DNA of 62,235 nucleotides from Salegentibacter salarius (GTDB lineage: Bacteria > Bacteroidota > Bacteroidia > Flavobacteriales > Flavobacteriaceae), in the NCBI RefSeq assembly GCF_900168265.1, contig NZ_FVZF01000023.1:1-62235 (forward strand), written 5' to 3'. Below, piece after piece: positions 4,039-58,215 of this stretch. The position numbers were made by a program, and so were the translations under genes. Within the stretch, counting starts at the first letter, position 1; each line of letters opens with the position of its first letter. The notes under the pieces were generated by a model. It was not told the origin of the DNA and did not search any database. It saw nothing but the letters and a program-made list of their open reading frames with translations.

Positions 4039-4161
4039 AAAGGCTATTTAAAGAGGTATTAAGTTTAACGTCATCCTGAACTTGTTTCAGGATCTAACAA
4101 GTTAGAAGCTGAAATAAATTCAGCTTGACGTGGCGTAATCAGAACTCTTTAAATAGCCTTT
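4039..4161. terminator. Convergent terminator stem split by an inserted palindromic repeat
   Basis: AAAGGCTATTTAAAGAG (4039-4055) and its exact complement (4145-4161) form a 17-bp perfect stem, with a T-run on each side, between two converging genes. The space that should be a short loop is instead 89 nt and holds a family A repeat (4069-4130). Confidence 0.75.
4069..4130. repeat. Family A palindromic repeat, copy 1
   Basis: Bounded by CGTCATCCTGAA and TTCAGCTTGACG. The left half folds as ATCCTGAA/TTTCAGGAT and the right half as AAGCTGAA/TTCAGCTT, so the unit is two hairpins in opposite orientation. Related copies are at 26694, 43736, 46938, 54256 and 58311. Confidence 0.85.
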
Positions 4162-34742: not shown

Positions 34743-34930
34743 CGTCATTTCGAGTAGATTTTAAGGCGGTAGCCGAAGAAATTATATCGAGAACTCGATA
34801 CAATCCCGATTATCATCGGGACCACTCGAAGTGACGCGTTATTTCATCTTCATATTTTATTTTTTACAGGGTGCTACGTCGGTTCGAGTAGGTTCTTGAG
34901 GCGGTAGCCGAAGAAACTGTATCGAGAACT
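34743..34930. repeat. Family B composite repeat, left unit
   Basis: A full repeat (34743-34836) from CGTCATTTCGAGTAG to ACTCGAAGTGACG, with the palindrome CCCGATTATCATCGGG inside, is followed by a spacer (GCGTTATTTCA to ACAGGGTGCTA) and a second half-repeat (34877-34930) from CGTCGGTTCGAGTAGG to ATCGAGAACT. The same two-part order in the same orientation recurs at 35259-35451. Confidence 0.85.
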
Positions 34931-35219
34931 AAGTGAAGTATTTCTTAGCCAGATTCGGTAAGTTTTCAAACCTCCCATTTATCAACGCTTTCTTTTTGGC
35001 TCGAGACCATTTTTTAATTTGCTTTTCCCGCATTATGGCAAAGTTGATATCTGAAAATTCTGCGAAGAATACCAGTTTTAAAGGTCTCCTTTTAGCGGTA
35101 TAACTTGCGGAATGAGCTCCGGTGTTATGCTCAATCATTCTTTTTTCAAGGTTAGAAGTAACTCCAGTGTAATAGGTGTTATCAGCACATTCCAAAATAT
35201 ATACAAAGCTTATTTTCAT
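34929..35219 (-). CDS. GIY-YIG endonuclease domain protein
   Basis: A 96-residue single-domain protein. The GIY-YIG core reads FVYILECADNTYYTGVTSNL (VYI and YTG in place of GIY and YIG), then LEKRMIEHN with the catalytic Arg, and IMREKQIKKW with the metal-binding Glu; the basic tail is RAKKKALINGRF. It is the URI/SLX1-like small group abundant in Flavobacteriia. Catalytic residues are intact, so it may cut DNA. Its stop codon TAG (34929-34931) touches the end of the left family B unit, and an equivalent unit starts 40 nt upstream of the gene. Confidence 0.88.
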   Translation of the reverse strand: MKISFVYILECADNTYYTGVTSNLEKRMIEHNTGAHSASYTAKRRPLKLVFFAEFSDINFAIMREKQIKKWSRAKKKALINGRFENLPNLAKKYFT

Positions 35220-35258
35220 TCTGCCGTTTTAAAGGAATATTAAGTTACTAAATTCTCA

Positions 35259-35451
35259 CGTCAGTTCGAGTAGATTTTTGAGACCGTAGTCGAAGAAATC
35301 GTATCGAGAACTTCTCGATACAAACCCGATTACCATCGGGCTCACTCGAAGTGACGCGTAATTTCAGTTTAAAATTTTTATATTTTTCAGGGTGTTTCGT
35401 CAGGTCGAGTAGGTTTTTGAGACGATAGTCGAAGAAACCGTATCGTGAACT
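35259..35451. repeat. Family B composite repeat, right unit
   Basis: The full part (35259-35356) runs from CGTCAGTTCGAGTAG to ACTCGAAGTGACG with an internal CCCGATTACCATCGGG palindrome; then a spacer (GCGTAATTTCAG to TTCAGGGTGTT) and a half-repeat (35398-35451) from CGTCAGGTCGAGTAGG to CGTGAACTC. It is a direct repeat of 34743-34930 and frames the GIY-YIG gene. Confidence 0.85.
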
Positions 35452-40716: not shown

Positions 40717-40828
40717 ATTGCGAGGACTGCGATAGCAGGACGCGGCAATCTATACTAAAAAATGCCACGAATACACGAATATTAGGTTTTGTCATTGCGA
40801 GACCTGTTTTTACGTGGCGCGGCAATCT
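40717..40828. repeat. Family C repeats, two copies
   Basis: ATTGCGAGGACTGCGATAGC with GGACGCGGCAATCT (40717-40751) and GTCATTGCGAGACC with GTGGCGCGGCAATCT (40791-40828). Each begins ATTGCGAG and ends GCGGCAATCT; the ends ATTGC/GCAAT are complementary. Confidence 0.7.
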
Positions 40829-40936
40829 TTTGTTGGGAATTACACTACCTGTTTAGCGTTTGTGGTTTATATTAGATTGTAAGAGAAAACTCCACAAATG
40901 AGTATAGGAAAATTTTTTTTTAACTTTCCTTCTAAA

Positions 40937-41133
40937 ATACCTACGAGGTTAAAAGAAACCTCGCAGGAGAACCACATCCTGCAAGGTTTTCAAAAACTTG
41001 TAGGTTTGATTCAGAGCAAATTCATGCCGGGATTTAAAATCCTGAAATTTTTACTTCTTCCTTCTTTGGTCAAATGAATTCGAGTAAATTGATAGTGGAA
41101 TATACCTACGAGGTTAAAAGAAAACTCGCAGGA
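40937..41133. repeat. Family D repeats, two near-identical copies
   Basis: 40937-40968 and 41102-41133 are 32-nt copies with one mismatch; each is a hairpin (CCTaCGAGGTT pairing with AACCTCGcAGG). A third related hairpin (CCTGCAAGGTTTT / AAAACTTGTAGG) lies at 40978-41004. Confidence 0.75.
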
Positions 41134-41182
41134 TAATTCTATAAAATTATTCGTGCATTCGTGGCAATAAATTTTCAGATTT

Positions 41183-43708: not shown

Positions 43709-43860
43709 TCTCGATAAGCGATTAAATCTTGTTCTCGTCAAGCTGAACTTGTTTCAGCTTCTAACATGTTTCATATTAATAAGATTTTAGATCCTGAAAT
43801 AAATTCAGGATGACGGCTTTAAGCAAAATCAAAAATACATACCACCAATAATCGAGTAAA
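43709..43860. repeat. Family E ends enclosing family A copy 3
   Basis: TTCTCGATAAGCGATTAAAT at 43709-43728 and TAATCGAGTAAA at 43849-43860 look like decayed inverted ends of a family E element. Between them lies family A copy 3 (43736-43815, CGTCAAGCTGAA to CAGGATGACG). The block separates the divergent M14 and bshC genes. Confidence 0.6.
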
Positions 43861-54205: not shown

Positions 54206-54255
54206 TTGCTTAAATTTTCTTTATACTCCTAAATAGTTATATTCCAAAATTTGGA

Positions 54256-54337
54256 CGTCAGCCTGAACTTGATTCAGGGTCTAAGTCGAATGTATAGTAC
54301 TATTTATATTAGATGCTGAAACCAGTTCAGCAAGACG
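54256..54337. repeat. Family A palindromic repeat, copy 5
   Basis: Starts CGTCAGCCTGAACTTG and ends TTCAGCAAGACG. It separates the flavin oxidoreductase gene (upstream side) from mnmA (54389). Confidence 0.8.
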
Positions 54338-54388
54338 GTATGTTTATTTTATAAGTAAAAACGAACCTACATTAAATTTTCTCCGAAT

Positions 54389-56361: not shown

Positions 56362-58215
56362 ATGAAAACTATTAAATTTACTAAAATCGCTTTACTGGCA
56401 TTTTTGACTTTTGGTCTCTTTGCGTGCAGTGATGACGATGATGGAGGAGATGTAATTACCCCTTCAAACACAATTGCCGATTTTGTTGCGGGCAACCCTG
56501 ATTATTCTTCTTTGGGCGCAGCATTAGAAGTAACCGGGCTGGATGCTACTTTAGACGGAACTGCTAACTTCACCGTATTTGCACCTAACAATGCCGCATT
56601 TAACTCATTTTTATCGACCAATGGCTTCAACAGTTTTGATGAAGTTCCAGAAGATGTTTTAACTGAGATCCTTCTAAACCACGTTCAGGAAGGTGAAATT
56701 ATGTCTAATGCCTTATCTACCGGTTATATTGAAAGTATGGCTACCGGTATGGCTTCAGACCAACCTTTAAGTTTGTATATTAATACTGATGATGGTGTAA
56801 CTATTAACGGAGTTTCTTCGGTAACCACTGCCGATGTTGAAGTAGACAACGGGATAATCCACGCTGTAGATGCCGTAATTGGACTGCCGGATGTAACCAC
56901 TTTTGCAACTGCCGATCCTAATTTTGATATTCTTGTACAAGCACTTACTGCAGATGAATCTTTTACTTTCGTTGAAACTTTAATGATGAGTGAAGATCCT
57001 GCACCATTTACTGTTTTTGCACCAACAAATACTGCTTTCGCTAATGTACTTGCAGAACTTGAATTAGCCGGGTTAGGAGATGTTCCTGCCGATCTTTTAT
57101 CGAGTATTTTGAGCTACCACGTAGTTACGGGAGCAAATGTTCGTGCCGAAGATCTTACAGATCAAATGATGGTGGAAACTTTTGAAACCGGAAGTTTCAC
57201 TATCAACCTGGGAGAAAATGTAACTATTACTGATGAAAACGGAAGAACTGCAAAAATTGTTGCCACTAACGTTCAGGCAAATAATGGTGTGATACACGCT
57301 TTAGATACCGTAATGCTTCCTGAAAACGATGCTATTGAAATTGAAACCAATACCATTGCAGATTTTGTTGCTGGAAATGAAGATTATTCTTCTTTATTAG
57401 CTGCACTTGAAGCTACTGGTTTAACTTCAACTTTCACCGGAACCGATATTTATACCGTATTTGCTCCAAATAACGCTGCATTTACAGCCTTTTTAAATGA
57501 TAACGGGTTCAATAGTCTTGATGAAGTACCTGAAGCTTTGTTAACCCAGGTTTTATTGAACCACGTACAAATGGGCGAAATTATGTCTACCGATTTAACT
57601 ACCGGTTACATCCCGAGTATGGCCGTTTGGGGAGCTTCTGAAGAGCCTTTAAGTATGTACATAAATACAGATGACAGCGTAATGATAAACGGAGTTGCTT
57701 CTGTTACCTCTGCAGATATTGAAGCAGATAATGGAATTATACACGCGGTAGATGCGGTAATTGGATTACCAAACATAACCACTTTTGCTACTGCCGATCC
57801 TAACTTTGATATTCTTGTACAGGCCCTAACGAGAGAAGAGTCTTTTACTTATGTTGAAACACTTATGATGAGTGAAGATCCCGCTCCATTTACTGTTTTC
57901 GCTCCAACCAATGATGCTTTCGTAGCTTTATTAGATGAATTGGAATTAGGAGCTCTTGGAGATATCCCTACAGAAACTTTAGAAGCTACTTTAGCGTATC
58001 ACGTAGTTGCCGGAGCTAACGTTAGATCTGGAGACTTAACTGATGATATGGATGTTACCACGCTAGAAGGCGGTGATTTTACCGTAAATCTTGGTGATAA
58101 TGTAACTATTACAGATGAAAACGAAAGAACTGCTACAGTGATTGCAGCCGATGTTCAAGCTACAAACGGAGTAATTCATGCACTTGATACCGTATTACTT
58201 CCTGCTGCGGAATAA
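56362..58215 (+). CDS. Surface lipoprotein with four fasciclin (FAS1) domains
   Basis: A 617-residue lipoprotein with mature start C-S-D-D-D-D-G-G, the acidic surface-export signature. Four FAS1 domains follow (about 36-180, 180-325, 327-470, 470-615), each with the H1/H2-type cores such as FTVFAPNNAAF and NGIIHAVDAVIGLP. Domains 1-2 and 3-4 are near copies: residues 36-325 repeat at 327-615, and the DNA repeats with a period of about 880 bp, so the gene grew by a tandem duplication. FAS1 proteins mediate adhesion. A strong terminator follows. Confidence 0.93.
   Translation: MKTIKFTKIALLAFLTFGLFACSDDDDGGDVITPSNTIADFVAGNPDYSSLGAALEVTGLDATLDGTANFTVFAPNNAAFNSFLSTNGFNSFDEVPEDVLTEILLNHVQEGEIMSNALSTGYIESMATGMASDQPLSLYINTDDGVTINGVSSVTTADVEVDNGIIHAVDAVIGLPDVTTFATADPNFDILVQALTADESFTFVETLMMSEDPAPFTVFAPTNTAFANVLAELELAGLGDVPADLLSSILSYHVVTGANVRAEDLTDQMMVETFETGSFTINLGENVTITDENGRTAKIVATNVQANNGVIHALDTVMLPENDAIEIETNTIADFVAGNEDYSSLLAALEATGLTSTFTGTDIYTVFAPNNAAFTAFLNDNGFNSLDEVPEALLTQVLLNHVQMGEIMSTDLTTGYIPSMAVWGASEEPLSMYINTDDSVMINGVASVTSADIEADNGIIHAVDAVIGLPNITTFATADPNFDILVQALTREESFTYVETLMMSEDPAPFTVFAPTNDAFVALLDELELGALGDIPTETLEATLAYHVVAGANVRSGDLTDDMDVTTLEGGDFTVNLGDNVTITDENERTATVIAADVQATNGVIHALDTVLLPAAE
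56467..58212 (+). repeat. Internal tandem duplication of a two-FAS1 unit
   Basis: The two ~880-bp units (56467-57346 and 57347-58212) align along their length, for example GATCCTAATTTTGATATTCT near 56923 and GATCCTAACTTTGATATTCT near 57803, and the GAGTGAAGATCC block near 56989 and 57869. Confidence 0.8.

Follow-up and report, generated by a model that had tools for sequence, protein, structure and literature searches.

A small GIY-YIG nuclease gene of Salegentibacter salarius and the repeats on both its sides probably form a cognate nuclease-REP pair, in which a Slx1-like GIY-YIG nuclease recognises its own CGTC-tagged hairpins. By analogy with the RAYT transposases of other REP elements, stand-alone GIY-YIG nucleases of the COG2827/UPF0213 kind are proposed here as the dedicated enzyme of CGTC repeats, and the observations presented below suggest that they supply the enzyme so far lacking for a widespread class of bacterial repeats. 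To our knowledge, UPF0213/COG2827 proteins have no known repeat partner, and within the open-access literature (preprints and most subscription papers lying outside it) no report joining GIY-YIG genes with CGTC repeats was found. CGTC-tagged REPs were defined in a 2013 paper, which places them in Bacteroidetes, Neisseriae, alpha-proteobacteria and others, counts Neisseria dRS3 and Rickettsia RPE-4 and RPE-6 in the superfamily and G. forsetii among its holders, describes these repeats as ones that 'apparently lack a dedicated transposase', and leaves open what spreads these widespread short bacterial repeats (PMC3733652). An enzyme matched to each family makes that question testable with one 11-kDa protein and oligonucleotides. 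If the proposal is true, COG2827/UPF0213, a common gene class of unknown function, acquires a role, and at least two separate origins of REP systems, each with an enzyme unrelated to the other, would be suggested.

The window, meaning the whole analysed stretch of 62,235 nucleotides (contig NZ_FVZF01000023.1), carries the gene at 34929..35219 on the reverse strand. It encodes a B-type, COG2827/UPF0213-like protein of 96 aa that consists of a single GIY-YIG domain (Pfam, 3.3e-18) and little else, no other Pfam family being matched at E 0.1 and HUH and Y1_Tnp domains being absent. The Y, Y-x-G, R and E residues of the GIY-YIG superfamily are present, Y7, Y17, G19, R27 and E65 being among the invariant positions in an alignment of 32 proteins; we take them to be the catalytic residues. 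The earlier note on this DNA, made from the sequence alone, had described a 96-residue GIY-YIG gene with intact key residues, in agreement with both results. Slx1, which acts with Slx4 as Slx1-Slx4, cuts branched DNA. The window protein has the same domain and predicted fold as Slx1 and the stand-alone UPF0213/COG2827 proteins (1zg2, 1ywl); structure prediction (mean pLDDT 80) places it closest to UPF0213 proteins and only then to Slx1, with weak Slx1 and Slx1-Slx4 matches (E 0.006-0.03). It differs from Slx1, for which a zinc finger and the Slx4 partner are described in PMC7017083, in being the GIY-YIG domain alone. A group I intron endonuclease profile also matched weakly, far under its cut-off. 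Rfam gave zero matches at E 0.1 between 34600 and 35600, ruling out at that threshold the flanking repeats as a known RNA family.

The gene lies between a left unit at 34743-34930 and a right unit at 35259-35451, which align over their full length with 160/193 columns identical and a score of 125, against a maximum of 8.5 among 200 letter shuffles. The tail of the left unit runs into the gene's stop codon (TAG, read as CTA at 34929-34931), and the right unit starts 40 nt upstream of the ATG. Two like units of about 190 bp, as well as their contact with the stop codon and their distance from the start, had been claimed from the sequence, and all are confirmed; the anatomy assigned to them holds as regards the units and requires correction as regards their parts. 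Each unit comprises two CGTC-tagged hairpins in inverted orientation, their tags pointing outward, followed by one more tagged hairpin. In the left unit, the first arm of the pair spans 34743..34795 (forward strand, CGTC tag at 34743) and the second 34796..34836 (reverse strand, tag ending at 34836), while the single REP at 34877..34930 (forward) is the one whose tail overlaps the stop codon. In the right unit, the arms span 35259..35312 (forward) and 35313..35356 (reverse), and a worn single REP, CGTCAGGTCGAGT, occupies 35398..35451 (forward) with a weak fold. Thus, what had been called full repeats (34743-34836 and 35259-35356) are better read as REPIN-like pairs, and the half repeats as single REPs. 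Compared with shuffles, the two full repeats form much better folds (z -4.3 and z -6.8); one half repeat folds well (z -3.1) and the other does not (z -0.8). The window REPs carry the CGTC tag beside the stem that marks the CGTC superfamily. According to PMC3733652, members of that superfamily have a CGTC or TGTC tag, a stem of 8-9 bp starting with A (mostly followed by T), a loop of 4-5 and a short tail, and the sibling A repeats appear to fit this description; on the contrary, the B repeats of the window form a longer, imperfect hairpin, and tails in our A-heavy sample are mostly CT rather than CCA.

A search of the genome (3.33 Mb, 48 contigs) identified six small and four longer GIY-YIG genes, two of them A-type genes on contig C8. 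Palindromic GTCA-tagged repeats of four families adjoin five of the six small genes. The sixth, L004 (G000:C5:165299), belongs to a separate clade; no CGTC repeat was found in the 300 bp read on each side of it, and runs nearby resemble GTAATGAAGTAACGAAGTGATG. The earlier note had named, as an outcome telling against its idea, that most paralogues would occur without family B, and this is indeed the case; yet the other paralogues have families of their own, as just described for the small genes. Across the genus, the window protein has matches at 1e-8 in 12/15 Salegentibacter genomes, amounting to 36 rows, two of which (both in G009) are one broken gene. Thirty genus loci were fetched and scanned for patterns, and 15 of them were read by eye. 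Each of the 15 has palindromic repeats close to the gene, those of L015 bearing an altered tag and those of L021 being worn, and the type of repeat corresponds to the protein clade (B, B', C, C', A, D1, D2, D3, E). Side-by-side reading of these 15 loci indicates that inner stems probably differ between families. In the genus, several gene copies are disrupted, whether by stop codons, a frame shift or an insertion.

Some loci deserve separate mention. In L015 (G010:C4), a B-like protein 63% identical is flanked by repeats with the tag CGTTGACTTCGAGTG instead of CGTCACTTCGAGTG, a natural variant useful for addressing specificity. In L037 (G008:C1:2213501), a D2-type gene is split by an insertion of ~460 bp, both halves being recognisable. 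D1-like genes in L002, L226, L230 and L243 stand, as read by eye, among apparent tryptophan-synthesis genes; the hairpins flanking the last three have no GTC tag, and these four genes possibly represent a settled, domesticated clade.

The association extends well beyond the genus. GTDB contigs were scanned by protein only, and the sample consists of the best 80 of at least 523 relatives, a non-random set mostly from Bacteroidota; the hosts of related loci presumably span about a dozen phyla. In these best 80 of at least 523, a GTC-tagged hairpin lies within 300 bp of the gene at 69 loci, on both sides at 54, and went undetected at 11. The framing is a general one. Control windows 600-2400 bp away contain a tagged hairpin in 31/877 cases, and among intergenic regions of the same loci a hairpin occurs in 77/85 adjoining the gene versus 17/106 others (p 5.7e-27), so that chance adjacency is ruled out by both controls. 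When hairpins were detected without reference to the tag, GTC was the commonest trinucleotide beside them in the same best 80 of at least 523 relatives.

Flanks of 18 of the 80 loci were read by eye. Repeats of the form GTCATCCTGAAC...GGATCT were seen on one or both sides in Chloroherpetonaceae, Ignavibacteriae, Auribacterota, Aliifodinibius, Gastranaerophilales, Mesoaciditogaceae, Sulfuricurvum, Sulfurimonas, Treponema, Elusimicrobiales, L120, Kordia and three candidate-phyla genomes. No tagged hairpin was seen in the flanks read for L088 nor, outside these 18, in those of L223, L060 has worn repeats without the tag, and Stappia (L111) displays a different, GC-rich GTCACCCCGGG repeat on both sides that the detector missed. 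In a plasmid collection, 31 records match and a tagged hairpin lies near the gene in 11 of the 14 read, one of the 11 (L224) being doubtful; these loci include Sinorhizobium meliloti, Azospirillum lipoferum and Neisseria gonorrhoeae, the last with dRS3-type repeats. Repeats unscored by the detector were seen by eye in Planktothrix and Novosphingobium, and none was found in the 200 bp read on each side in Rhizobium tumorigenes. The Neisseria gonorrhoeae record L212 (NZ_CP119140.1) is labelled a plasmid, and its size of 2.17 Mb suggests a chromosome. Regarding orientation, outward-tagged REPs enclose the gene, which then sits inside a REPIN, in 40 of the 63 loci scored on both sides, the remainder showing the opposite order (14/63) or both hairpins in one direction (9/63). 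The window gene is an exception, the nearest hairpins on its two sides pointing the same way.

Correspondence between protein clade and repeat family was counted in 167 assigned loci, overlapping rows being kept in: L016 and L027 are one gene, L039 and L041 one Salegentibacter contig, and L034 and L038 overlap and show both A genes of the genome, L038 being scored at the wrong gene and counting as a miss. Loci of A-type proteins (n=113) contain an A repeat in 84 cases and a B repeat in none, and those of B-type proteins (n=31) a B repeat in 25 and an A repeat in none. Other patterns were seen as well: D3 in 8, C in 2, D1 in 1 and D2 in 1 of the A-type loci, and D2 in 1 and E in 1 of the B-type ones. 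For the smaller types, the own repeat was present in 2/3 (C), 3/4 (C'), 3/3 (D2), 2/2 (D3), 2/4 (E) and 2/7 (D1) loci, with off-type A repeats in three D1-assigned loci and C repeats in two C' loci. Protein similarity correlates with stem similarity (Mantel r 0.56, reached in 0/2000 permutations; 83/94 loci with a hairpin, host relatedness uncontrolled). Within an A-heavy sample of 248 hairpins, obtained with a detector that required GTC and preset a stem of 8-9 and a loop of 3-7, the base before GTC is C in 138 and T in 77, the first stem base is A in 240, the second T in 182, the fourth C in 239, and the tail has C in 238. The outer part of the hairpin is therefore near constant in that sample: GTC (required), then A, and a C in the tail; the fourth stem base, however, varies just as little. 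Taken together, an enzyme gene is flanked by a cognate repeat family that differs for each paralogue, as expected for a RAYT-like system.

Repeat number was compared with gene presence in 149 genomes from 148 genera, the counts including copies that flank the gene. At least two A repeats occur in 26/32 genomes with an A-type gene (E <= 1e-25) versus 15/117 without (Fisher 3.4e-13 at the best of five thresholds, each of which gave p <= 2.2e-9), and at least six in 18/32 versus 10/117; the reversed A pattern has zero occurrences in the 149 genomes. At least two B repeats occur in 10/21 genomes with a B gene (E <= 1e-30) versus 9/128 without (p 1.8e-6), showing no association with the A gene (5/32 versus 14/117, p 0.067), while for A repeats a weak link to the B gene exists as well (p 0.022). 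Single B copies may be due to chance, because the reversed form of this short pattern matches 17 times versus 124 real matches in the 149 genomes. The S. salarius genome holds 201 A-pattern copies versus 13 exact B-pattern copies, and several genera have no exact-pattern B copy anywhere but beside the gene; family B has spread little. Thus, repeat number tracks the cognate gene, though there are exceptions: at least five A repeats occur in ten genomes that lack an A-type match at 1e-25 (G145, with no match, has 16 and G097 has 51), six A-type genomes have fewer than two, and G004, which has no B gene, holds 7 B repeats. The prediction that A-rich genomes without a strong match would contain a diverged A-type gene framed by A repeats failed, since the 15 loci from nine such genomes, read by eye, show mostly other hairpins and an A repeat in L239 only; in the larger set of 20 loci to which these 15 belong, GTCA-tagged hairpins were seen by eye close to the gene in 13, while the hairpins of the other 7 are untagged. 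The link between gene and repeat number could reflect joint inheritance of both.

Orthologous sites in relatives were then considered. The gene occupies the window site in S. salarius (G000), G005, G007 and, in broken form, G009, while neither gene nor B repeat is present there in G001, G002, G003, G006 and G008; G004 and G011 keep worn repeat remnants, as judged by eye. The comparison leaves out G010 and G012; in G014 the site is cut off by a contig end, and G013 has no match to the neighbour gene. The array itself varies by eye, with two pairs (one worn) in G005 and four pairs plus a single hairpin around the gene in G007, and in most relatives the locus is either entirely occupied or entirely empty. 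Comparing strains for empty sites, as had been advised, therefore yields five empty relatives, while movement of the gene-bearing unit was not seen. A moving B unit was rejected as a candidate, no second site for the gene-bearing unit having been found and the genome and three relatives sharing the same orthologous site.

The sibling A family combines 201 pattern copies with inverted pairs and so conforms to REPINs, while family B has inverted pairs but 13 exact copies only. REPINs of the A family lie in the window at 4069..4130, 43736..43815 and 54256..54337 (within 54216-54372), all without strand assignment. In comparisons that left out clusters too near a stretch end, some species have A REPINs that others lack at the orthologous sites, in the window or close to it, and REPINs therefore differ between species. 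The site at 54.2 kb is empty in four relatives, being uninterrupted in G007, G009, G011 and G014, and G008 has an element there; the S. salarius REPIN at this site has ~35 bp of extra sequence on each side, and an 11-bp direct repeat, TTAAATTTTCT, delimits the insertion. A general rule of target-site duplication was discarded, since the other junctions read show no clear direct repeat.

Three other explanations have to be weighed. GIY-YIG enzymes include homing endonucleases, and the gene might be a homing-like element that uses its own REP family as a landing site only, a safe haven, without spreading the REPs. Location of the gene within REP arrays, the weak group I intron endonuclease match, the whole-locus occupancy and empty sites seen at the window locus, and the genera with exact-pattern B copies only around the gene are all in line with it, and free-standing GIY-YIG homing endonucleases are likewise small mobile genes; unlike them, the present genes have no intron or separate DNA-binding domain, and a hairpin family accompanies them. 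Moreover, A-type genomes hold A repeats away from the gene, as the S. salarius count illustrates, with numbers following the cognate gene, and gene-free REPINs differ between species at orthologous sites, which makes the landing-site explanation unlikely.

The nuclease might otherwise serve maintenance, trimming or resolving cruciforms and stalled forks at REPs that some other enzyme, such as a Y1 transposase, spreads. The weak Slx1 likeness of the fold, the one Y1_Tnp gene of the genome and the genomes rich in A repeats without an A-type gene speak for this, which nonetheless appears distinctly unlikely: general upkeep needs no family-by-family matching, none of the repeat patterns used here lies within 1.5 kb of that Y1_Tnp gene, and PMC3733652 reports no CGTC repeat flanking tyrosine transposase genes. 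The surroundings of this gene, the only Y1_Tnp gene found in the genome, likewise speak against a RAYT as mover of these repeats. Finally, small GIY-YIG proteins might provide back-up excision repair, with the hairpins acting simply as terminators or regulators of the gene. PMC1839093 proposes a repair role for the COG2827 genes of Caulobacter, which number three and of which one has an SOS box, and names R. palustris and N. meningitidis as further holders; these holders overlap with the holders of CGTC repeats in PMC3733652. Hairpins that stand on both sides in most loci, are GTC-tagged, recur in the genome and match the protein clade go against a repair role, and genes that are patchy, multi-copy and in several cases broken fit a core repair function poorly, so that this reading is highly improbable.

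A cognate nuclease-REP pair agrees in several respects with the RAYT (TnpA-REP)/GTAG REP and REPIN systems, as these are presented in PMC3116915 and PMC3733652: a nuclease gene lies beside a matching family of tagged hairpins, each paralogue has its own family (a different REPIN cluster lies beside each RAYT; PMC3116915), and inverted REP pairs are spread between genes. On the contrary, the enzyme here is a GIY-YIG protein whereas RAYTs are HUH tyrosine transposases, the tag is CGTC instead of GTAG, and the gene is often inside the pair. The core of the analogy drawn in the earlier note is therefore well supported and general, its restriction to family B was too narrow, and its mechanism is putative. 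The nuclease would bind an extruded or single-stranded hairpin through the shared outer part, GTCA...CT, and a family-specific inner stem, and would cut beside the CGTC tag, a common cutting site being thus combined with a variable recognition stem; host replication or repair would then copy or remove the REPIN, REPINs being on this scheme small, gene-free derivatives. Joining would be left to the host, because GIY-YIG enzymes hydrolyse DNA and are not known to pass through the covalent intermediate formed by RAYTs. Such a course parallels the REPIN/RAYT view published in PMC3116915. There is about an even chance that GIY-YIG nucleases and CGTC REPs constitute a second, independent REP/REPIN class in about a dozen phyla, with a hydrolytic, transposase-free and family-specific spreader of REPINs, and with the gene between outward-tagged REPs as the autonomous form.

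Two further features of the window were recorded: a lone GTCATTGCGAG repeat of the D2-type pattern at 40791, near short direct repeats at 40934-41136, and two 300-nt direct repeats at 56752-57933, 79% alike and 882 bp apart.
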